Virus record (IMG/VR): IMGVR_UViG_3300012920_000262
Coordinates: 1-23,935 of that record
From: a virus
Length of the DNA: 23,935 bases
Strand: one strand, 5' to 3'
The position numbers and the translations under genes are program-made. Positions within the stretch are counted from its first letter, which is position 1. Every line of letters begins with the position of its first letter. The notes under the pieces are model-generated. The model made no database searches. It was not told where the DNA came from and worked only from the letters and a program-made list of their open reading frames with translations. Below, piece by piece: positions 5,184 through 15,885 of the stretch.

Positions 5184-6800
5184 TTATTTATTTTTTGGTG
5201 ATTTAGGGTGTTTACTTGGCAAGAGATCAAAATCTCCTGTGTATTTAGGATTTTGTGGCCTACCATTTCTAACTAGATATAAATAAGCATTTACTCTAGC
5301 TTGTGCCCAAGCTGAAGGTGATTTAATTTTTGGTGAATGTGATACATTAAATGCTCCTAAACCTCTTTGAAATACACTTTTTAATTGACCAACAGTCACA
5401 CCATAGCCTAGTTTCTTTTTATACCTTTCATTAAATTCATCTGCTTTTTTTTGTAAACTAGCTTCATCTTTCTTACTTACTTTAGCACCTCTACTAGTTG
5501 ATGCATCTCCTTTGGCAGTACCTTTACCTTTTGGGTTTTTGTTTGGTGTATCTGATTTAGGTGCTTTAGGTGATTTCTTTATTCCACCTCTTGGACCAAT
5601 TTCAGCATATTGATTTTTTTTTACACATTTACCTTTCTTTTTTACAAACCCTTCTGGACATTTATACTTTTGCATAATGTGCTTTTCACAAGGCATATAC
5701 CAAGTTTTTTCATTACCCTCTTGATCTTGATAAATATGTGTGTGTATTCCTTTACAACCTATATTTTTAGCCATTTCTTCTGCCTTTTCCTGTGTGCTGT
5801 ATGCCAACCTGTCGTCTAATATTGCAAAATCTTCATTAACTACCATAGATGCTAAATTAATTTCACCTAGTTCTTTTAACTTACTTTCAGCCCATCTTAA
5901 TCCAGCTTTACCACCCCATAGTAAATAGCTAATTGTACCACAGGCTTCAGTATTACCTTCATCATAGTATTCACCTGCTCTGCTTAAATAGCTATACATT
6001 CTTTTTATGGTTTCTAAACTAATGTTTTCTTTGTTTGCTAATTGTTGTGCTCTTATTTTTCCCACCTGTGTTGCACACTTATTATTAACCTTTGCATTTA
6101 GTTCAATGCCTTTTTTAGCATTATTAGAAACTCCTGATGGATAATCTTTATATGTTTCTAGTGTAATCTTCTTGCCATTTTTAGTTCTTTTGTCATTTCT
6201 GATAACTGCCTTAATATTACTTAACATATATTCAGCTTCTTCTTCTTCTATAGCTTGCATCTCTGCTTTTAAATTAGGTTTACTAATTTTAGCTTTATCT
6301 GCAAAGTAACCTTCAATGCTAAATCCTTTTACTCGTCCTTCTTTTACATAATCATTCCAAACCTCATCATTTTCTACTTTCATGCTGATCATCCAAGTTC
6401 CCTCTGGTACTTCAAATCCATACATTTTGCTTTTATCCATTTCAGGGTTTTCTACTATCCAAGATTCAACAACAGTTAAACCATTGATCTCCATATTGTG
6501 TTCTAGTGTTGCATTGTTTTGGTTACCATTCATAAAAAACAATTCACTTGCTCTTTTTACTGTATCCTTGCTAAAATACACATAGAACATTGTATCATTT
6601 CTTTTTCTAAAGATTGGTTTATTAGGTATTAATGCAGCACCCATTAGTATTTTCTTATCTTCATCCACTTTAGCAAACATTACTTCTTGTTTGCTTAATG
6701 CTATAAAATCTGATTCTATAGCAGGATTCTCTACAATGCTAACAGCTTCAATGCCTGTTAGTTCATCATTTTCATCTAGTAATAATTCTATTATATCCAT
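5184..6800 (-). CDS. XkdF-like head maturation protease with DUF5824-like C-terminal domain (538 aa)
   Basis: Residues 48 to 170 match the XkdF-like phage protease family (Peptidase S78_2): ILMGAALIPNKPI, FYVYFSKDTV, NATLEH (His101) and VKGFSIEGYF (Ser161). His101 and Ser161 are the likely catalytic residues. Such proteases cleave scaffold and coat during head maturation. The protein continues well past a normal protease. Residues 205-312 have DYPSGVSNNAKKGIELN and RMYSYLSRAGEYYDEGNTEA; residues 333-395 have a Cys/His segment (GIHTHIYQDQ, WYMPCEKH, YKCPEGFVKKKGKC); 396-450 is a basic Lys/Pro/Gly linker; 452-526 looks like DUF5824 (ADEFNERYKKKLGYGVTVGQL, RGLGAFNVSHSP, WAQARVNAYL). The extra domains may package other activities with the protease or be released in the head. 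The gene lies upstream of scaffold and capsid, as expected. Confidence 0.8.
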   Translation of the reverse strand: MDIIELLLDENDELTGIEAVSIVENPAIESDFIALSKQEVMFAKVDEDKKILMGAALIPNKPIFRKRNDTMFYVYFSKDTVKRASELFFMNGNQNNATLEHNMEINGLTVVESWIVENPEMDKSKMYGFEVPEGTWMISMKVENDEVWNDYVKEGRVKGFSIEGYFADKAKISKPNLKAEMQAIEEEEAEYMLSNIKAVIRNDKRTKNGKKITLETYKDYPSGVSNNAKKGIELNAKVNNKCATQVGKIRAQQLANKENISLETIKRMYSYLSRAGEYYDEGNTEACGTISYLLWGGKAGLRWAESKLKELGEINLASMVVNEDFAILDDRLAYSTQEKAEEMAKNIGCKGIHTHIYQDQEGNEKTWYMPCEKHIMQKYKCPEGFVKKKGKCVKKNQYAEIGPRGGIKKSPKAPKSDTPNKNPKGKGTAKGDASTSRGAKVSKKDEASLQKKADEFNERYKKKLGYGVTVGQLKSVFQRGLGAFNVSHSPKIKSPSAWAQARVNAYLYLVRNGRPQNPKYTGDFDLLPSKHPKSPKNK

Positions 6801-6811
6801 TTTATTATTTT

Positions 6812-8854
6812 TTAATTTCCACCTACTGTAGCAGCAGATATTATGTTATTATTTAATTGTTGTGCTGTTGTTACGTCTTGTGCTACTACAAATGCTTGTA
6901 CTGGTTGCTGTTGACCTAGTGCCTGTGCAACTTGATTAAAACCTGACTGACCAACTACGTTAAACTGTGGTGCTTGTGATTCTGCAACACCACCTGAAAT
7001 ATTACCTGTAGGAGTAGAAGGTTTTGTTGAAGAAGGTGATTGAAACCTTTGTGCTGCTATTGCTGCAACATTAGCTAATCCTGTTACTGTTGCTATTCCT
7101 GCTGCAATACCTCCTCTAATTGGTGAGGTTGCATCTGCTATAGGTACAAACTGTGAGAAATATGCTTTGTTAGCACTATTAAATGTTGTAATTAATGCAG
7201 ATGCTATATTAGCAGCTTTTTCAACTTCAAAAGCCTTTTTCTGTTGCTTTTCACTTTGACCAGCAAATGTTTGTGCTAAAGATGCAATGGTATCAAAACC
7301 TGCTATAGCTGCTTCAACTTTTAAATCTTCTAATCGTTGTAAATTTTCTACCTCTGATTCTGTTAGTTCTGTTCTTTTAGGAACTTGTTTTTCTAAATTA
7401 GCTGTAACTGTATTTTCTGTTTCTATTGTTTTAGCTGCCCTAGTTTCCATTCTTGGAATTTGCATTTCTGCAAACTTATCAACTTCAGATTCAACAAGAG
7501 TAAGTTCTCTTAATGCTGTAATTTTTGCCTGTATAGCTTTTACTTCATCATTTCTTTGAGCTACTTCTCTTTCACTAGTTGCCTCCCTATTACTTACTTG
7601 CTGTAATTCTTTTTCTAATAGTTTTATTAAATCTCTAGTTTGTTTCTCTTTTTCTTTACCTGCTTCTGTATTTTCTTTTAAAACAGCTCCTTCTTCTTTA
7701 AGTGATTCTATTTGTTTTTCAAGTTTTCCATCTAGTTCATCAAGTACATCAATTTGTTTTTGTGTTTCTATAACTGATGACAATGTTTTAGCATTAGCAA
7801 AATCTTGAGCTTTACCTGTTCCTATTATACCTTTCTCAATTCCAAAAAATGACTGTATTTGTGCACCCATAGCTTGTAAATGGTCAGTTATACCTATATT
7901 AGCATCAGTTTGAGCATCTACTTGAGCATTTAAAATATCTTTAAATTTTTCTGCTCTTAATTCAGCTATAGCATCCTGTTGAGCTTTTAACTTGACAAGT
8001 TTTACATTTAATAGTAATGCTTTATTTATATTCTCTATTGAATCTTTTTCAGCATCTACATTAGATAATAAATCAGGGTATTCTTTTTGTAGTTCTTTTA
8101 CTGCTTTTGTTTTGTCAGCTCTTGTAGTTGTTTCATCATTTAAAATTTTCCTTAACCTATCAGCAGCACTTACTTCTTCAGCAATATTATCTATGGCTAG
8201 TTTTGATGCCTCATTCATTGCATCTTGGCTCTTTGTTGTTCCTGTAATAGCTCTTGATAATTTATCAAAATTTTCTACTAATAAACCTATACCAACAACT
8301 AATGCACCTATTCCTGTTGCTATTATTGCTGTTCTTAATCCTTTAAAAGCAAATGAAGTAGTGTCTACAGAAGCACCAAATGCTTTCATAATAGTACCAG
8401 CAATAGCATTAACTTTATTGTTTGCAGTTTGTAAAAGTGTTGATGTTTTTATAATGTTATTAAATAACTTTAACCCAGATTGAACACCTTCTATAGCACC
8501 TTTAAAAGCCATTGATATACCTATAGCTTTTTCTATATTTTGTGCTGTTTCTTCTACTGCACCATCTTCACCACCTAGCAATACAAAAGCTGCTGTAACA
8601 TCACCTACTGCACCAGTAACAGAACCAAGTTCAGATGCTACTTGCTCACTATCTAATGCTTCTAAAGCAAGCTCTGTGTTTTTAAGTTGTTTTTGTGCTG
8701 TTATTAACTCTTGGGAAAGTGCCTTAAATTCATCACTTCCAATTTTTTCTCTTTTTAACCTTTCCTGTAAATCAGAAATTTGATCTTCTAATTCACCAAT
8801 AGAATTTACAGCTCCTTTAGTGTCTATATTTATTTCTACTTCAAACTCTTTCAT
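6812..8854 (-). CDS. Tape measure protein (680 aa)
   Basis: It sets tail length and is later ejected with the DNA. Residues 14-75 are heptad-like helices (ELEDQISDLQERLKRE and onward), typical of tape measure N-termini. A hydrophobic segment at about 173-194 (LRTAIIATGIGALVVGIGLL) could span a membrane. Residues 230-520 are long charged helices. The C-terminus is Ala/Gly/Gln-rich with FVVAQDVTTAQQLNNN. It is short for a tape measure; at roughly 0.15 nm per residue it predicts a tail of about 100 nm. It starts inside the previous small gene (14-bp overlap). It is not directly preceded by the chaperone gene as in lambda, but comes after the baseplate-like genes. Confidence 0.8.
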   Translation of the reverse strand: MKEFEVEINIDTKGAVNSIGELEDQISDLQERLKREKIGSDEFKALSQELITAQKQLKNTELALEALDSEQVASELGSVTGAVGDVTAAFVLLGGEDGAVEETAQNIEKAIGISMAFKGAIEGVQSGLKLFNNIIKTSTLLQTANNKVNAIAGTIMKAFGASVDTTSFAFKGLRTAIIATGIGALVVGIGLLVENFDKLSRAITGTTKSQDAMNEASKLAIDNIAEEVSAADRLRKILNDETTTRADKTKAVKELQKEYPDLLSNVDAEKDSIENINKALLLNVKLVKLKAQQDAIAELRAEKFKDILNAQVDAQTDANIGITDHLQAMGAQIQSFFGIEKGIIGTGKAQDFANAKTLSSVIETQKQIDVLDELDGKLEKQIESLKEEGAVLKENTEAGKEKEKQTRDLIKLLEKELQQVSNREATSEREVAQRNDEVKAIQAKITALRELTLVESEVDKFAEMQIPRMETRAAKTIETENTVTANLEKQVPKRTELTESEVENLQRLEDLKVEAAIAGFDTIASLAQTFAGQSEKQQKKAFEVEKAANIASALITTFNSANKAYFSQFVPIADATSPIRGGIAAGIATVTGLANVAAIAAQRFQSPSSTKPSTPTGNISGGVAESQAPQFNVVGQSGFNQVAQALGQQQPVQAFVVAQDVTTAQQLNNNIISAATVGGN

Positions 8855-8991: not shown

Positions 8992-11289
8992 TTAACTTAC
9001 TGTAAATGTTCCTCCTGTTGGTGATACTGTTGGTGTTGGATCAATATCTGTTGTACAATAACTAGTAGCACTATATGATATTGATATTTCAGCAGGATTG
9101 TTTATAATATTTATTAATTCTAGTTCAGTTTCTCCACTTTGTAATTTTGTCTTCATGCTATTTATAGTAAATGACCTTGTGTCAATGATTACAGTATCAT
9201 CTAAAGACAAATTAATTAATACTTTTAATGGTAAAATAGCTTTAAATTTAAAAAGCCTTGACTCTTTATTATATAGTCTTGTAATATAATTTGTATAATA
9301 CTTTTGAAATAAAGAATTATTAACACCACTAAAATCAGTTAGATCGTAACTGTTTATCTCACTTCCAAAATCTAAATTATAAGTGGGAGGGGTTGTTGTA
9401 CTTCCTGCGCTACTATAATTATGAGGCATCCAAAAATTAATAACGCCTGTTCTCGTTCCTGCAGGACATAACGCATTTTTAGTGGCTGGCCTTGTAGTAT
9501 CTACAAAATTAATTCCTCCTGTTGCGACTTTATATACTCCATAAAAAATAACAGGTTTTGCCATAATAGGCTCTTCATTACTGTCAACGTGAAAACCATA
9601 TTGAATACCCGTTAAATCTCCGTTAGCTATATTTATCAACCTTTCATACAGTATATGTTCTAAATCAGCTTTTACATTGAATTTATTATTAGTAGTTAAA
9701 TCACTTTTAAATTCTAAACTGCCAAATTTTCTATTGTTTGTGTTGTTAAATGCATCAGCTAAAATTGTTTTCTGTTCCGCATATTCAAAATCTATTTCAT
9801 CATAAGGAATAACACTTGTTACAGTATGCTCATCTGTTTTAATATATTCTGTAATATTATGTGTTTCACCTCCATCATAAAAATCATCTAATGTTTGAAC
9901 AACTATTTCTTCATTAAAATTTACAAATGCAGTTAAATTATGCATCTTAAATAAAGTAGTCAAAAAATCTAGAACCTTCATGTCTGGCATTTGATCTGTA
10001 ATAACCACTTCTCCATTTTGTGGTGTTAAGTTTGATGCAGTAGAAGTAAAAGTAGCAGTAAAGTTGTTTACTGTAGGTGTAGGATCAGTATCAACAATAG
10101 TAGTAAAATCTAAATCATATTGCGCCTGAAACTCAAAAGTTTCTTCACTTGTTACCCTTCCTACAATATCACCAGTAAAAAACTCATCAACCTCAAAAGT
10201 GTAAGAAATTGTATTTGTTCCTGTTTGATAAACATCTTTTGCCAATGATGACCAATCAGAAGCACTTAATAACTCAATAGTATATGGAACAGAAGCAAAA
10301 CCAGTATTTGGAGTGACTTGAAAATCAATAGTCAACTCAAAAGATAAAGTGTCTGCTATTGGGGTGTAAACATATCTTATAATCCCATTTGCTAAATTGA
10401 ATTTGGGATTACTGTTTGTAGATGTAAACACAGCACAATCTGAACCTGAACAAGTGTAAGAATCTGAATTGCCTATCCAAGTTCCAGCTAAAGCCATTTT
10501 CCCTTTTTTTCTATGCAACCACATATACATATTATCCATAGCAGCAGAATCAAAAAATTCACTTGTTTTAAATGTTAATGAATATTTTTCTTCAATAGCT
10601 TTTATTATGTGTTTTACTAAAATAGCTGGTTTTAAATCTTCTGGAACTACCCCTCTCTTTGTTCTGTTTGTAAGGTTAGCTGATATGTTTCCCCCGTGAT
10701 CTAAATTTGGTGAACCGATTGCAAAGTCATAAAGCAATTGCTGTGAATGTGTGATTAATGGATATATAATGGCGTCATTATATGTTACAGAATCAACTGT
10801 AAAATTAAGACCGCTTTGTAATCCGTCTAATACATTTGTTGCATTATTGACGTGATCAAAGTTATTGAGCCACTCTAATTGATTTAATTTGTCCTCTCCG
10901 ATTAGATCGTTTAGTGTAACAGTACTCCCGAAAAAAGTTACTTTATATAATGAGGGTTTGTTGTTTTTCATAACCACTTCCTCTAATCTAATCTTACCAT
11001 CTTTGAAATGAAAATGATTTAATTCTATTCTAGCTTTTGAATACTGTTGATTATCAAAGCCTTCTACATCAGGGTTGTACCAATATTTAAAAATCTTATT
11101 ATTAGTTTTTGATGCAGGCAAATTAAATGTTTGGGTAAAATCTGTAAATACTTTATCAATATTTTTAGCATCTTGTATAACTTGTGTTAATGTAATTAAA
11201 TCTTCTTCCATTAAATCCAATATCTGAAAGTCTTGATCAGTGCTTTCATTTCTTAATTTTGGCTGTATGTATAGAATTATCTTCTGCAT
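8992..11289 (-). CDS. Large tail/baseplate hub-like protein (765 aa)
   Basis: The 765-residue protein follows a Dit-like gene, the place where siphophages keep the tail-associated (Tal, hub) protein. The N-terminus has a run of motifs I associate with large tail proteins of Bacteroidota phages: FTQTFNLPASKTNNKIFKYWY, RIELNHFHFKDGKIRLEEV, then NNKPSLYKVTFFG and NDLIGEDKLNQL. The middle is beta-rich with a Cys pair (TCSGSDCAVF) at about 280. The last 30 residues (TDIDPTPTVSPTGGTFTVS) are a Pro/Thr-rich stretch. I see no lysozyme or peptidase motif. Its start shares one base with the upstream stop (TAATG), consistent with translational coupling. The hub role is inferred from position and family resemblance. 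Confidence 0.7.
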   Translation of the reverse strand: MQKIILYIQPKLRNESTDQDFQILDLMEEDLITLTQVIQDAKNIDKVFTDFTQTFNLPASKTNNKIFKYWYNPDVEGFDNQQYSKARIELNHFHFKDGKIRLEEVVMKNNKPSLYKVTFFGSTVTLNDLIGEDKLNQLEWLNNFDHVNNATNVLDGLQSGLNFTVDSVTYNDAIIYPLITHSQQLLYDFAIGSPNLDHGGNISANLTNRTKRGVVPEDLKPAILVKHIIKAIEEKYSLTFKTSEFFDSAAMDNMYMWLHRKKGKMALAGTWIGNSDSYTCSGSDCAVFTSTNSNPKFNLANGIIRYVYTPIADTLSFELTIDFQVTPNTGFASVPYTIELLSASDWSSLAKDVYQTGTNTISYTFEVDEFFTGDIVGRVTSEETFEFQAQYDLDFTTIVDTDPTPTVNNFTATFTSTASNLTPQNGEVVITDQMPDMKVLDFLTTLFKMHNLTAFVNFNEEIVVQTLDDFYDGGETHNITEYIKTDEHTVTSVIPYDEIDFEYAEQKTILADAFNNTNNRKFGSLEFKSDLTTNNKFNVKADLEHILYERLINIANGDLTGIQYGFHVDSNEEPIMAKPVIFYGVYKVATGGINFVDTTRPATKNALCPAGTRTGVINFWMPHNYSSAGSTTTPPTYNLDFGSEINSYDLTDFSGVNNSLFQKYYTNYITRLYNKESRLFKFKAILPLKVLINLSLDDTVIIDTRSFTINSMKTKLQSGETELELINIINNPAEISISYSATSYCTTDIDPTPTVSPTGGTFTVS

Positions 11290-12919: not shown

Positions 12920-13374
12920 TAACAATATGTCATTTCTGTAGTTGTACCTATATCAAATGTTACTGCCCAGCCAGCTAACATATTATCAAATCTTTCTGTA
13001 AATGGCTCACAAGAGGCATCTCCTACTAATTCAAAACCATTTCTGTATGCATCTTTTTTTTGCATTACTCTAATTACTCTAGTAGCCAAAGCAAGCTGTG
13101 TATTTAGTATATCTTGCCTGTTGTCATTGCCTAGAAAATAATCTCTTGTCTGCTCATTACTAACATCAACTAAATCCATTAAAAATATAGTCATGTTGTG
13201 TACTACATAATTATCTTGTATTGTAGCATTATTAACTGTGATGTGGCAAAGTGGAAATAAACTTTGTTTTTTTAAATCTACATCACCAATATCACCAAAG
13301 GTTACTTCATGGTTAAATGGTTCTTCTTTAACTACATCTCTAATTGTATCTATAACTTTGTAAAAACTTTTCAT
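12919..13374 (-). CDS. Tail terminator-like / head-tail joining protein (151 aa)
   Basis: A 151-residue protein with VTFGDIGDVDLKKQSLFPLCHI, then NATIQDNYVVHNMTIFLMDLVD, DNRQDILNTQLALATRVI and SCEPFTERFDNMLAGWAVTFDI. I recognise that order as a conserved neck/tail protein of Bacteroidota phages that travels with the gp10-like gene, as it does here. The alpha/beta pattern and location fit tail terminator (gpU-like) proteins that stop tube growth and bind the head. The assignment to that role is inferred from gene order. It overlaps both neighbours by a few bases. Confidence 0.68.
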   Translation of the reverse strand: MKSFYKVIDTIRDVVKEEPFNHEVTFGDIGDVDLKKQSLFPLCHITVNNATIQDNYVVHNMTIFLMDLVDVSNEQTRDYFLGNDNRQDILNTQLALATRVIRVMQKKDAYRNGFELVGDASCEPFTERFDNMLAGWAVTFDIGTTTEMTYC

Positions 13375-13637
13375 ATTGATTTTATAAATAATGGTGCATG
13401 CTTGCCTAAATCTTCTTTAATAAATTCATCTAGCCAATCTATTGATTCATCAAAATCTGAATCTTTATCTTGCATTAGTAAATCTAAACACTTCCAATAG
13501 TTGTAAACTGCTTTTAAAGGTTTATTACTTGTAACACCCATAAATGCTTCTTCAAATCCATCTGCAAGAATTACATACTCATGCTTTTCTACTAGTTTTT
13601 GTTCCATTAGCTTTTCTAATATTTCTTCTCTTTTCAT
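13371..13637 (-). CDS. Small acidic protein after the chaperone-like gene (88 aa), unknown function
   Basis: An acidic helical protein: MKREEILEKLMEQKLVEKHE, then ILADGFEEAFMGVTSNKPLKAVY and DESIDWLDEFI. A similar small acidic family with a central ADGFEEAF-type motif occurs widely in Bacteroidota phages, with no known function. Its ATG lies within the last codons of the -1 frame extension of the preceding gene (4-bp overlap, ATGA), which supports that extension being translated, since otherwise the frame-0 protein would end 76 nt earlier. Confidence 0.72.
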   Translation of the reverse strand: MKREEILEKLMEQKLVEKHEYVILADGFEEAFMGVTSNKPLKAVYNYWKCLDLLMQDKDSDFDESIDWLDEFIKEDLGKHAPLFIKSI

Positions 13638-13885
13638 TTCTTTTTAACCATTTGTTGTTGTAGATCAGCTTTATCTTTTTCAAATGCTAGATACTGCAAA
13701 CAACTATGTAGCTTTAGTTTTGTAACCTCATCAAACCTCCTGACATCACCCTGTGCCATTGCATAGATTGATTGATACCAAGACCATTTTTGATTAAATC
13801 CAGTTTCTGCTGTTGCAATTTGTCTGGAGTCTGTTTTTGTAAATAGCTCATTATACAATTCAATAATTCTTTCTTTAAATGATAA
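13634..13885 (-). CDS. -1 frameshift extension (83 codons) of the chaperone-like protein
   Basis: This frame has no convincing start of its own (the first candidate is TTG at 13858) but is open in the -1 frame directly after the T9 run at 13884-13892. Two TAG codons close the same frame 6 nt before the run. Read through a -1 slip, residues 1-161 of the upstream protein continue as LSFKERIIEL and then ATAETGFNQKWSWYQSIYAM, GDVRRFDEVTKLKLHSCLQY and so on to KKK, giving a 244-residue product. The W-W-Y-x-S and D(V)xxFDEVT pattern resembles a conserved phage segment I recognise, so it is unlikely to be a chance frame. It overlaps the frame-0 end by about 170 bp and ends 4 bp into the 88-aa gene. 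The alternative is a homopolymer length error in the assembly. Confidence 0.7.
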   Translation of the reverse strand, partial: LSFKERIIELYNELFTKTDSRQIATAETGFNQKWSWYQSIYAMAQGDVRRFDEVTKLKLHSCLQYLAFEKDKADLQQQMVKKK

Positions 13886-14367
13886 AAAAAAACAATGCTA
13901 CTAAACACTATATCTAATTTAACTTTTTTCATATCATACTTATTAGAATTTTCATAATCTTCTATTAAGTATTTATCTTTTCTAGTTACTGTTACTGGTC
14001 TATATAAAACATTAATAGCTTTATGCATTGACTGCCATTCAGGTAAGTATGTATCAAGATCAATATATTCACCAAAGCTCATATCATCTAGTTTAGGTAT
14101 AAAACCAAACTCAAGGCCATTATGATTAAATCTATCAATAAATTTAGGTTCTTCTTTAAACAGGTTGTTTATACTATTAGCAATGGTGTTTATATCTGTT
14201 GCCTTTATTTGTAATACATTTTTTAATGGTATGTTACAAAATATTTCAATCATCTTCTGCTTTAAAAAATTATCATCTTTATTCTTATCACTAATCTTTA
14301 ACCACTTCTGGTATTGTCCTAGTGTTATTTCACTTAATGATTCAGGTACTTTGATTGTTACTTTCAT
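13714..14367 (-). CDS. Tail assembly chaperone-like protein, frame-0 product (217 aa)
   Basis: First gene of the tail module. Residues 1-160 read as a conserved Bacteroidota phage protein: MKVTIKVPESLSEITLGQYQ, MIEIFCNIPLKNVLQIKA, then LEFGFIPKLDDMSFGEYIDL and MHKAINVLYRPV. The frame-0 end is MQWHRVMSGGLMRLQN. Val159-Phe160-Phe161 are encoded by GTT TTT TTT within a T9 run, where a -1 slip would give a second, longer product. Two nested products from a slippery site are the hallmark of G/GT-type tail assembly chaperones, which load the tape measure protein. The chaperone role is inferred from that architecture and place in the tail module, although the tape measure gene is 5 kb downstream rather than adjacent. 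Copy B of the 30-bp element is 7 nt upstream of the start. Confidence 0.78.
   Translation of the reverse strand: MKVTIKVPESLSEITLGQYQKWLKISDKNKDDNFLKQKMIEIFCNIPLKNVLQIKATDINTIANSINNLFKEEPKFIDRFNHNGLEFGFIPKLDDMSFGEYIDLDTYLPEWQSMHKAINVLYRPVTVTRKDKYLIEDYENSNKYDMKKVKLDIVFSSIVFFYHLKKELLNCIMSYLQKQTPDKLQQQKLDLIKNGLGINQSMQWHRVMSGGLMRLQN
13884..13893 (-). other. Slippery sequence for a putative programmed -1 ribosomal frameshift
   Basis: On the minus strand the bases are G followed by nine Ts and then A. In frame 0 the codons are GTT TTT TTT TAT, so a canonical T TTT TTT heptamer is in register. A -1 slip moves decoding to TTA, TCA and onward in the 83-codon extension. I did not find an obvious strong pseudoknot in the AT-rich sequence downstream by eye. 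Polymerase slippage or a sequencing error in the homopolymer are alternatives. Confidence 0.68.
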
Positions 14368-14412: not shown

Positions 14413-14444
14413 AAAAAAAAAGCCACCTTAAAAAGATGGCCTTT
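14413..14444 (-). terminator. Strong intrinsic terminator between terminase and tail genes
   Basis: On the minus strand GCCATCTT and AAGGTGGC pair through eight positions (one G-U) around a 3-nt loop, and nine Ts follow (14421-14413). The G-U pair forms only in the minus-strand RNA, so that strand is favoured. It should stop transcription coming from the terminase operon, or from the promoter at 14546-14575, before the tail module. Confidence 0.88.
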
Positions 14445-14631: not shown

Positions 14632-14664
14632 CTTAATGCTTAAGGGGGGCTTAAGCAATGCTTA
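14632..14664 (-). repeat. Three contiguous 11-bp iteron-like repeats after the large terminase gene
   Basis: On the minus strand, three 11-mers lie head to tail: TAAGCATTGCT, TAAGCCCCCCT and TAAGCATTAAG. The first overlaps the terminase stop codon. The second and third also form a stem, GCTTAAG / CTTAAGC, around a C5 loop. They are followed by a purine-rich tract with repeated GATAAG. A related array with the same 11-bp period, orientation and GATAAG flank lies inside the DUF1376-like gene at 20880-20912. The array marks the start of the only long non-coding gap in the window (14368-14661), so an origin-like or packaging-related role is plausible. Confidence 0.65.
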
Positions 14665-15885
14665 ATAAATGTAGTATTCTCCACCACTTTGTAGCTGGTA
14701 ACTAACTGCATATCTCAAAGCATCTAATGCGTGGTTGTAATTATCTACAGGTGTTTGTGATTTTCTTTCTAACCATACATAGTTATTTAATTCTTTGATT
14801 AGATCAGTACTATCACTATCTATTATTAAATCATAATCTTGTATCATACTAATACCATATGTTACACTACCTTGTCCTTTAATAGCTGGTACTATATTAC
14901 AATGTCTTGATAACTCATTAATTAATCTTGGTTCAGCACTATCACCAACAATTAAATCATTTCCTGCATACTTTACATTTAAGTTGGCTAATTCACTTGT
15001 AGTTAGTTTAGACTGATAGAAACACAGCTTAACATAAATAATCTTATTCTCTTTGTCTATGCTTGTTTTGACTAATGTACTAGGGTCGTTACTAAATCCA
15101 TAATCTTGGCCATAAACAACTTTATTAATATACTTAAATTCACCTATTGACCAATTAGAATATATAACCCCTTCTGCTTTGTCTAGCCAAGCACCTTGAA
15201 TAGTGTGCTTAAATCTATCTGGCCTTCTAGCTTGCATACTTTCTATTTGCTGTATGTAGCTGTTAGATAAATTATCTTTGTTATCTAGATATGTTGTGTG
15301 TATATAGGTAGTGTCATCTTTTGTTATATTGCTACCAGCTTGTACACCTCTACCTTCAAACCATCTTTGATATATAAAATGCTCTTTAGTTGTAGGGTTT
15401 AATATTAGTATTATTCTATTTTCTTGTGCTTTGTTTCTAACACTTAAATCTATCTTATCAAAAGTATCCTCATCTACTAATTCTTCTGCTTCATCCATCA
15501 CCCAAGTTGTGATGCCCTGTAGTGATTTGAGGTTTGCTGTCTGGTCTCCTGATGAGGTTTTAATACCTCTGAATATTATCTTGCTTCCATTACCTTTGTT
15601 AATAATCTCATCTTTGGTTATTTTAAAATCATCAACCTTATTAAGCATTTCAATCTTTTCTATGAATTCAGGTATGATAGATATATTTGCTGATCTTAAT
15701 GTATATCTAGTAAATAATATAGTGTGGCCTGCTTGATATGTTAGCAGTAGCAGTATGGTATTTATAGCAAATGATTTACCACTACCTCTACCACCTGTGA
15801 TAATAAAGTACCTTGCTTTAGATTCATCAAGTACTAAATACTTATTGTGTAGCTTTAATTCCTGCAATGAGTTTTCTGAAGTCAT
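14662..15885 (-). CDS. terL: Terminase large subunit, PBSX/XtmB-like (407 aa)
   Basis: The motor that packages and cuts phage DNA. The ATPase domain has Walker A GGRGSGKS at 31-38 and Walker B with TTWVMDEAEE, Asp131-Glu132. The C-terminal RNase H-like nuclease has Asp in YGQDYGFSNDPS near residue 250, Asp in IVGDSAEPRLINEL near 320, and NHALDALRYAV near 384-394. All expected acidic positions are present, so it should be active. The length of 407 residues is normal for the PBSX-type family. The gene overlaps the small subunit by 44 bp. Its stop codon lies in an 11-bp repeat array, and a 290-bp non-coding gap follows instead of the portal gene. Confidence 0.95.
   Translation of the reverse strand: MTSENSLQELKLHNKYLVLDESKARYFIITGGRGSGKSFAINTILLLLTYQAGHTILFTRYTLRSANISIIPEFIEKIEMLNKVDDFKITKDEIINKGNGSKIIFRGIKTSSGDQTANLKSLQGITTWVMDEAEELVDEDTFDKIDLSVRNKAQENRIILILNPTTKEHFIYQRWFEGRGVQAGSNITKDDTTYIHTTYLDNKDNLSNSYIQQIESMQARRPDRFKHTIQGAWLDKAEGVIYSNWSIGEFKYINKVVYGQDYGFSNDPSTLVKTSIDKENKIIYVKLCFYQSKLTTSELANLNVKYAGNDLIVGDSAEPRLINELSRHCNIVPAIKGQGSVTYGISMIQDYDLIIDSDSTDLIKELNNYVWLERKSQTPVDNYNHALDALRYAVSYQLQSGGEYYIY

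Follow-up and report, generated by a model that had tools for sequence, protein, structure and literature searches.

The window analysed here is the entire 23,935-base IMG/VR virus record IMGVR_UViG_3300012920_000262. On its minus strand, a terS-like gene and the terminase large subunit are followed by a gene in which two reading frames meet at a run of nine T's (the frame-switch gene) and by an 88-aa gene. Downstream on the same strand come genes matching phrog_30964, phrog_29822, phrog_35281, and phrog_38559, the tape-measure gene, a protease-like gene, a small gene matching phrog_24921, genes matching phrog_11320 and phrog_19091, and the portal gene; the phrog_11320 gene is capsid-like, as judged from a partial match to phrog_1623. 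The features of the locus are as follows:

14662–15885, minus strand: terminase large subunit, the directly upstream gene (PF04466, E 5.9e-35)
14413–14444, minus strand: terminator-like hairpin with a T tail, between the terminase gene and the frame-switch gene
13714–14367, minus strand: frame-0 ORF encoding the short product of 217 aa (ATG at 14367; stop ends at 13714)
13885–14367, minus strand: N-domain, 161 aa common to both products (alignment of 60 members and AlphaFold model)
13884–13892, minus strand: putative slippery T9 run, with G13893 before it and A13883 after it
13634–13885, minus strand: −1 extension of 83 codons plus TGA, the C-domain of the 244-aa long product
13717–13883, minus strand: dual-coded stretch of 167 nt in which frame 0 and the −1 frame are both open
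13875–13877, minus strand: TAA stop in the +1 frame, the frame of a transcript one T shorter, read from the sequence
13371–13637, minus strand: next gene, 88 aa (phrog_13182, E 4.5e-11)
6812–8854, minus strand: tape-measure gene (phrog_3336, E 2.6e-10), 4.8 kb downstream

The original prediction of a frame switch at G-T9-A (13884–13893) was accurate in most particulars. Frame 0 reads GTT TTT TTT TAT at the run, and the −1 frame is closed just upstream by TAG TAG, although the second TAG lies 5 nt from the first T and not 6 nt as had been given. The −1 frame is open from 13885 to 13637 and stops at TGA (13636–13634), which bears out the 83-codon extension, the products of 217 and 244 aa with their first 161 residues identical, and the dual-coding stretch put at about 170 bp. 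Residues 1–183 of the short product match phrog_32199 (E 1.5e-18), the −1 extension matches phrog_38404 at E 0.004, and frame 0 is 209–223 codons long in most close relatives. The next gene begins inside the last −1 codons, as foreseen, its ATG (13637) overlapping the −1 stop as ATGA; the offset between −1 stop and next start is −1 in 52 of the 82 lineages compared, and in a further 14 it is +2, as in TAATG. Because the two abut or overlap in most lineages, translation of the 88-aa gene is probably coupled to that of the long product.

On the upstream side, the T9 tail of the hairpin runs into TATATTTG at 14413–14406, which resembles a Bacteroidetes −7 promoter box, purely as a consensus match. 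The frame-switch gene may start its own transcript just past the terminase gene. Separately, a 20-base exact match links window positions 14143–14162 in the frame-switch gene with 2411–2430 on the opposite strand of gene 2368–2721; it is probably due to chance.

Conservation of the junction and of both frames

We collected related loci by protein-pattern scans of viral contigs, a scan seeded with P12024S, and a scan of genome contigs, each taking the best 80 of several hundred relatives. Loci were retrieved by N- or C-domain protein patterns, and the T run was not used. Uniform tblastn searches with N- and C-domain queries were carried out over 407 loci, the window included. Both domains were present in 403 of these, in a −1 relation in 402 of the 403 among the matches listed; a C-domain match was absent from four loci (L102, L146, L223, and L397). 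Among the matches listed, 322 of 323 distinct junctions were in the −1 arrangement across an unbroken T9 (299 junctions) or T10 (23 junctions), and no in-frame fusion of the two domains was found among the 323. The T run is thus kept in homologues, a point the original prediction had proposed to check; a different T count or a lost −1 frame turned up only in L054, the sole T8 junction, whose domains stand in a +1 relation, and in L142, where the −1 frame has just 33 codons. The 23 T10 junctions and the T8 of L054 could include assembly errors.

The same arrangement occurs in the isolate phages P12024S and P12024L, which are ∼31% identical and have a C-T9-A junction, as well as in a Bacteroidetes bacterium MAG and a Psychroflexus MAG (L167 and L168). 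In these isolates, gp38/gp39 and gp40/gp41 (phrog_32199, phrog_38404) carry domains homologous to those of the window gene in the same order after the terminase; unlike the window gene, each pair is annotated as two hypothetical genes and the frame-0 tail is just 25 codons. The P12024S pair gp38 and gp39 (JQ823122, 23136–23830) look like a single frame-switch gene.

Clustering the loci at 80% identity gave 85 lineages; L158, L146, and L223 fall outside this set, no run having been found in the stretch examined. By start phase and T count, 66 lineages have phase 1 with 9 T, 12 phase 1 with 10 T, 4 phase 0 with 10 T, 2 phase 2 with 9 T, and 1 phase 0 with 9 T. None of the 85 has a run shorter than 9 T, and these settings of register and length change about 10 times on the tree. 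Where a 5′ T has been lost, in L167 (GCT) and L200 (AAT), the run is lengthened at its 3′ side, and T10 lineages retain the C-domain in the −1 frame because flanking codons changed too.

We then asked of the 82 lineages with a complete C-domain how far each frame is maintained. The frame-0 tail past the run has a median of 54 codons (minimum 24) compared with a median of 5 under a null in which the −1 protein is kept and its codons are resampled. At least 41 codons are reached by 79 of the 82 observed tails vs. 14% of the resampled ones, and the same-offset frame within the real N-domain reaches 41 codons at 0.6% of 1,426 points. Codon resampling is the fair test here, since the frame-0 stop is what delimits the overlap, and the absence of stops inside it is therefore true by definition. 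This comparison argues strongly for selection keeping the frame-0 tail open. Selection on its protein sequence is moderately supported: codon-level conservation is 0.178 in the overlap, 0.097 after it, and 0.028 in the N-domain, and frame-0 identity is 0.347 vs. 0.246 in the null, an excess inflated by ancestry. A synonymous-site test in close relatives did not find the overlap more constrained than the remainder of the −1 frame (ratio 1.21); the overlap/post-overlap ratio was 0.81 in the distant set and 0.94 over all.

The conserved −1 peptide starts right at the run, with Phe as its third residue in all 81 residues of that column. Just after the run, the Phe codon is TTT in 81/81. That TTC is missing at the third Phe codon is weak evidence, as codon counts (which left out L095 and L142) would lead one to expect T in ∼0.92 of cases anyway. 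Arg after the run is AGG in 54/54 cases in the 82-lineage set and 57/57 in the 85-lineage set, a choice that preserves frame-0 Leu-Gly; it could reflect the frame-0 Gly or a nucleotide signal for either slippage mechanism. The C-domain spans 79–91 codons except in L142 and at contig ends, and alignments of relatives show a conserved core motif, K-W-[GS]-W-Y. A stop in the +1 frame lies at most three codons from the run in 84 of the 85 lineages, in part because Phe-Lys/Arg coding in the −1 frame forces it; in the real N-domain, a +1 stop occurs within six codons at 62% of 794 points. As a separate observation, codon constraint in the −1 frame is strongest in the 10–25 nt that directly follow the T run (window 13871–13883 and its equivalents).

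Together, the conserved arrangement, the maintenance of both frames, and the two isolate genomes strongly support the programming of a short and a long protein. On this comparative evidence, both frames are almost certainly used by way of a programmed slip.

Ribosome or RNA polymerase as the slipping enzyme

Textbooks illustrate programmed protein ratios in phages with the frameshifts of tail chaperones, and these are usually taken as ribosomal. The original prediction followed this view in calling the event a programmed −1 ribosomal frameshift; its programmed short and long proteins are strongly supported, whereas the ribosomal part is not established and a slipping polymerase fits at least as well. 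In the ribosomal explanation, a −1 shift like those of lambda G/GT and P2 E/E+E′ would take place at U UUU UUU, two Phe tRNAs re-pairing one base back so that the ribosome enters the C-domain with polymerase slippage unneeded. Every run does hold a zero-frame T TTT TTT, which is a standard site for ribosomal slipping; the window has it, and so do the register variants examined. The P2 record carries a −1 translational shift in its annotation, and tail chaperones of tailed phages commonly use −1 ribosomal shifts according to PMC5009743.

The length of the run points the other way. The heptamer requires seven T's and seven suffice, yet the run always has 9–10 through repeated register changes, although two-frame Phe-Phe-Leu/Val coding accounts for part of them. 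We compared homopolymers in 629 non-redundant neighbouring genes (433 kb) with expectations from codon randomisation. T7 was seen 40 times vs. 72 expected, T8 once vs. 22, T9 once vs. 11, and longer T runs never vs. 3.5, so that these genes tolerate T7 but almost never contain runs of at least eight T's (2 seen vs. 36.5 expected). A runs were depleted at greater lengths but not at seven, with 159 A7 vs. 180 expected, 43 A8 vs. 63, 6 A9 vs. 31, and 1 longer run vs. 15.7 (at least nine A's: 7 vs. 46.7). The length threshold is not perfectly sharp, as T7 is avoided in all registers. Of the T7 classes, depletion is greatest in the ribosomal register (20 vs. 44.6 expected) and smaller in the two others (9 vs. 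13.9 in one, 11 vs. 14.0 in the second), which favors the ribosomal explanation in that ribosomal slippage on U7 may be costly too.

Two side observations concern such runs elsewhere. Among 1,595 neighbouring ORFs listed (a redundant set), the only other runs of at least eight T's were a T9 in a 454-codon ORF (L020, 7–1368) and a T8 in a 344-codon ORF (L387, 4176–5207). In the window, gene 5184–6800 (minus strand) contains an A9 in the mRNA sense at 5614–5622, a length mostly avoided in the neighbouring genes of relatives; it is possibly another slippage site.

Beyond the heptamer itself, ribosomal shifts commonly, but not obligatorily, have a stimulator. No stimulatory RNA structure above chance was found in 83 lineages by pseudoknot-free folding: the mean folding z was 0.09 at 5–85 nt downstream and −0.03 upstream (also 0.05), and 0/83 fell below −2. 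SD-like 4-mers upstream of the run occurred in 6 of 85 lineages compared with a control of 10%, giving no signal, and an Rfam search returned no match. The position of the frame-0 stop also argues against the ribosomal explanation, as it lies ∼55 codons after the slip, whereas the annotated P2 shift site is 20 nt before the end of E.

An uninterrupted, conserved T9/T10 at the frame junction, of a length depleted in neighbouring genes, is what transcriptional slippage would call for. Baranov et al. (PMC1088944) mark slippage-prone runs, runs of nine, by a length threshold combined with conserved overlapping ORFs. Polymerase indels in A/T runs are described in PMC5574713 as mainly insertions of a single base, whose frequency climbs steeply as the run gets longer; one inserted U would lead into the −1 frame, the same direction as these bacterial polymerase insertions. 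Weighing the maintenance of run length over register, the avoidance of runs of at least eight T's, and the lack of detected stimulators against the presence of the heptamer, we consider RNA-polymerase slippage the probable main mechanism, with modest confidence, and a ribosomal shift a possible though less likely one. What the sequences show is how the junction is arranged and conserved, that run length is under selection, and that both frames are maintained; from this we infer that the polymerase is the enzyme that slips.

Three further explanations dispense with a programmed slip, all of them improbable. A C-domain translated as a separate gene from its own start inside the overlap, with no slippage, recalls the annotation of P12024S gp39 from an ATG overlapping the gp38 stop, and in the window a TTG start gives a 74-aa ORF. 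However, an ATG (the only start counted) occurs within 45 codons of where the −1 extension starts in just 4 of 85 lineages, conservation of the peptide sets in at the run itself, and the T run would be left unexplained; we rejected independent initiation as a general explanation and regard it as very unlikely. Slightly less likely still is a contingency (phase-variation) locus, in which DNA-level changes of the run would switch the frame within a population. T9 homopolymers are mutable, and T8, T9, and T10 all occur, but T10 lineages are still in the −1 relation and the frame relation is kept in 322 of 323 distinct junctions, L054 being the one change, on which ground this explanation was rejected. 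Finally, homopolymers are error-prone, and the T8 of L054 and the short −1 frame of L142 could be read in that light, but mistakes in sequencing or assembly, or gene decay, in a single contig are ruled out as a general explanation, and a sequencing slip in the window is excluded, by the 322 junctions, P12024S and P12024L among them, that share the arrangement with both frames maintained.

Predicted products and a possible chaperone-like role

If RNA polymerase is the slipping enzyme, the host polymerase would yield a mixed mRNA population by slipping on the unbroken run of T9, or of T10 in some relatives. Faithful transcripts would encode the 217-aa protein, made up of the N-domain and a 56-aa frame-0 tail, and transcripts with one additional U would encode the 244-aa protein, made up of the N-domain and the 83-aa C-domain with its KWGWY motif. 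Transcripts with one U fewer or two U's more would end within a few codons, giving ∼163 aa with little beyond the N-domain; taken at face value, the product of L054 is that of the minus-one transcript, about 163 aa. Ribosomes in the −1 frame would stop at ATGA and could restart on the 88-aa gene, so that slippage may tune that gene as well. In Shigella, the spa13 extension likewise runs into the following gene, whose expression is affected by slippage, according to PMC5009743 and PMC4256274.

Other bacterial genes resemble the window gene in this respect. Thermus dnaX, Shigella spa13/mxiE, Citrobacter tssM, and IS elements have an unbroken A/T run of at least nine at the frame junction (PMC5009743, PMC4256274), and in bacterial transcriptional-slippage genes, conserved overlapping ORFs are joined by one additional nucleotide that gives the extension, as proposed here. 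Unlike those genes, the window gene has a run of T and not A, would be a phage late gene, and has counterparts in hundreds of lineages, with slippage inferred. Lambda gpG/gpGT and P2 E/E+E′ share with it a short and a −1 extended protein from one start, in or beside the tail genes, and an extension that forms a separate C-domain abutting the next gene. It differs from both in lying 4.8 kb from the tape-measure gene, in the 56-aa frame-0 tail after the slip, and in its T9/T10 run as opposed to an ordinary heptamer (a P2-type record notes AGGGAAAG).

The short and long forms most likely act like short and long tail-assembly chaperones, and we infer this role, together with the product ratio, from the design of the gene. 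A short and a frame-shifted long protein predicted from one start agree with the G/GT type named in the original prediction, and it is plausible that the gene works like a G/GT chaperone. The adjacency to major-tail and tape-measure genes expected of such a chaperone is found neither in the window nor in P12024S. A chaperone of this type would also be expected to bind the tape-measure and tail-tube proteins and to be missing from virions. The predicted distance of about 5 kb to the tape-measure gene was right (4.8 kb, with five genes between), but what had seemed an oddity is a stable gene order, also present in P12024S at 6.4 kb; assignment of the tape-measure gene there has weak support (phrog_58, E 2.2e-4).

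Homology to lambda G/GT-type tail chaperones is weakly indicated. The "tail protein" family phrog_166 was matched by 16 of 60 N-domains (best 1.7e-5), and P2 gpE, a chaperone with an annotated −1 shift, also matches it (4e-7); Pfam Phage_TAC_7 was matched by 3 of 60 (best 0.03). In hhalign comparisons, the N-domain profile gave no match to 11 P2 gpE relatives (probability 0.5%), and the C-domain profile gave nothing against P2 gpE relatives. AlphaFold models of the N- and C-domains (mean pLDDT 93.6 and 79.3) retrieved one named chaperone in the fold search (E 0.31, TMq 0.49), and fold and profile searches of the PDB found no homologue, middling hits being disregarded. Weighing these weak links, which point in a single direction, against the negative P2 gpE profile comparison and the distant tape-measure gene, we conclude that a chaperone-like role is plausible and that membership is not established. 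Both domain models match the same eight BFVD proteins (C-domain E 0.0012 to 0.89), which suggests single-ORF versions in remote relatives. Flavobacterium phage 6H may include a remote relative at 10352–10927, a weak structural match (TMq 0.34) without T9. The 6H locus (L249, 10048–10927) appears to be split between frames with TGTTTTTTC at the junction, where a −1 slip meets a stop at once.

Taken as a whole, the proposal that polymerase slippage sets the ratio of short and long tail-assembly proteins in a large aquatic (including marine) Bacteroidota-type siphophage clade, on a T9/T10 run kept constant across at least ten changes of run setting and with three products of 217, 244, and ∼163 aa, has about an even chance of being correct on the comparative data. 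In the portions of the open-access literature searched (phage and tail-chaperone slippage, programmed frameshift, Flavobacteri, P12024S), we found no description of this case. Run length and ribosomal register can be told apart in the comparative data, which favor run length, and codon randomisation of neighbouring-gene homopolymers offers a clean comparative test between ribosomal and polymerase slippage. If confirmed, annotation pipelines that split such genes, as in P12024S, or call homopolymer shifts errors lose a real protein. If true, the gene would give the slippage genes of bacterial secretion systems a counterpart among phage structural genes, and, if confirmed, transcription would be the level at which an abundant group of phages sets the ratio of a structural protein.
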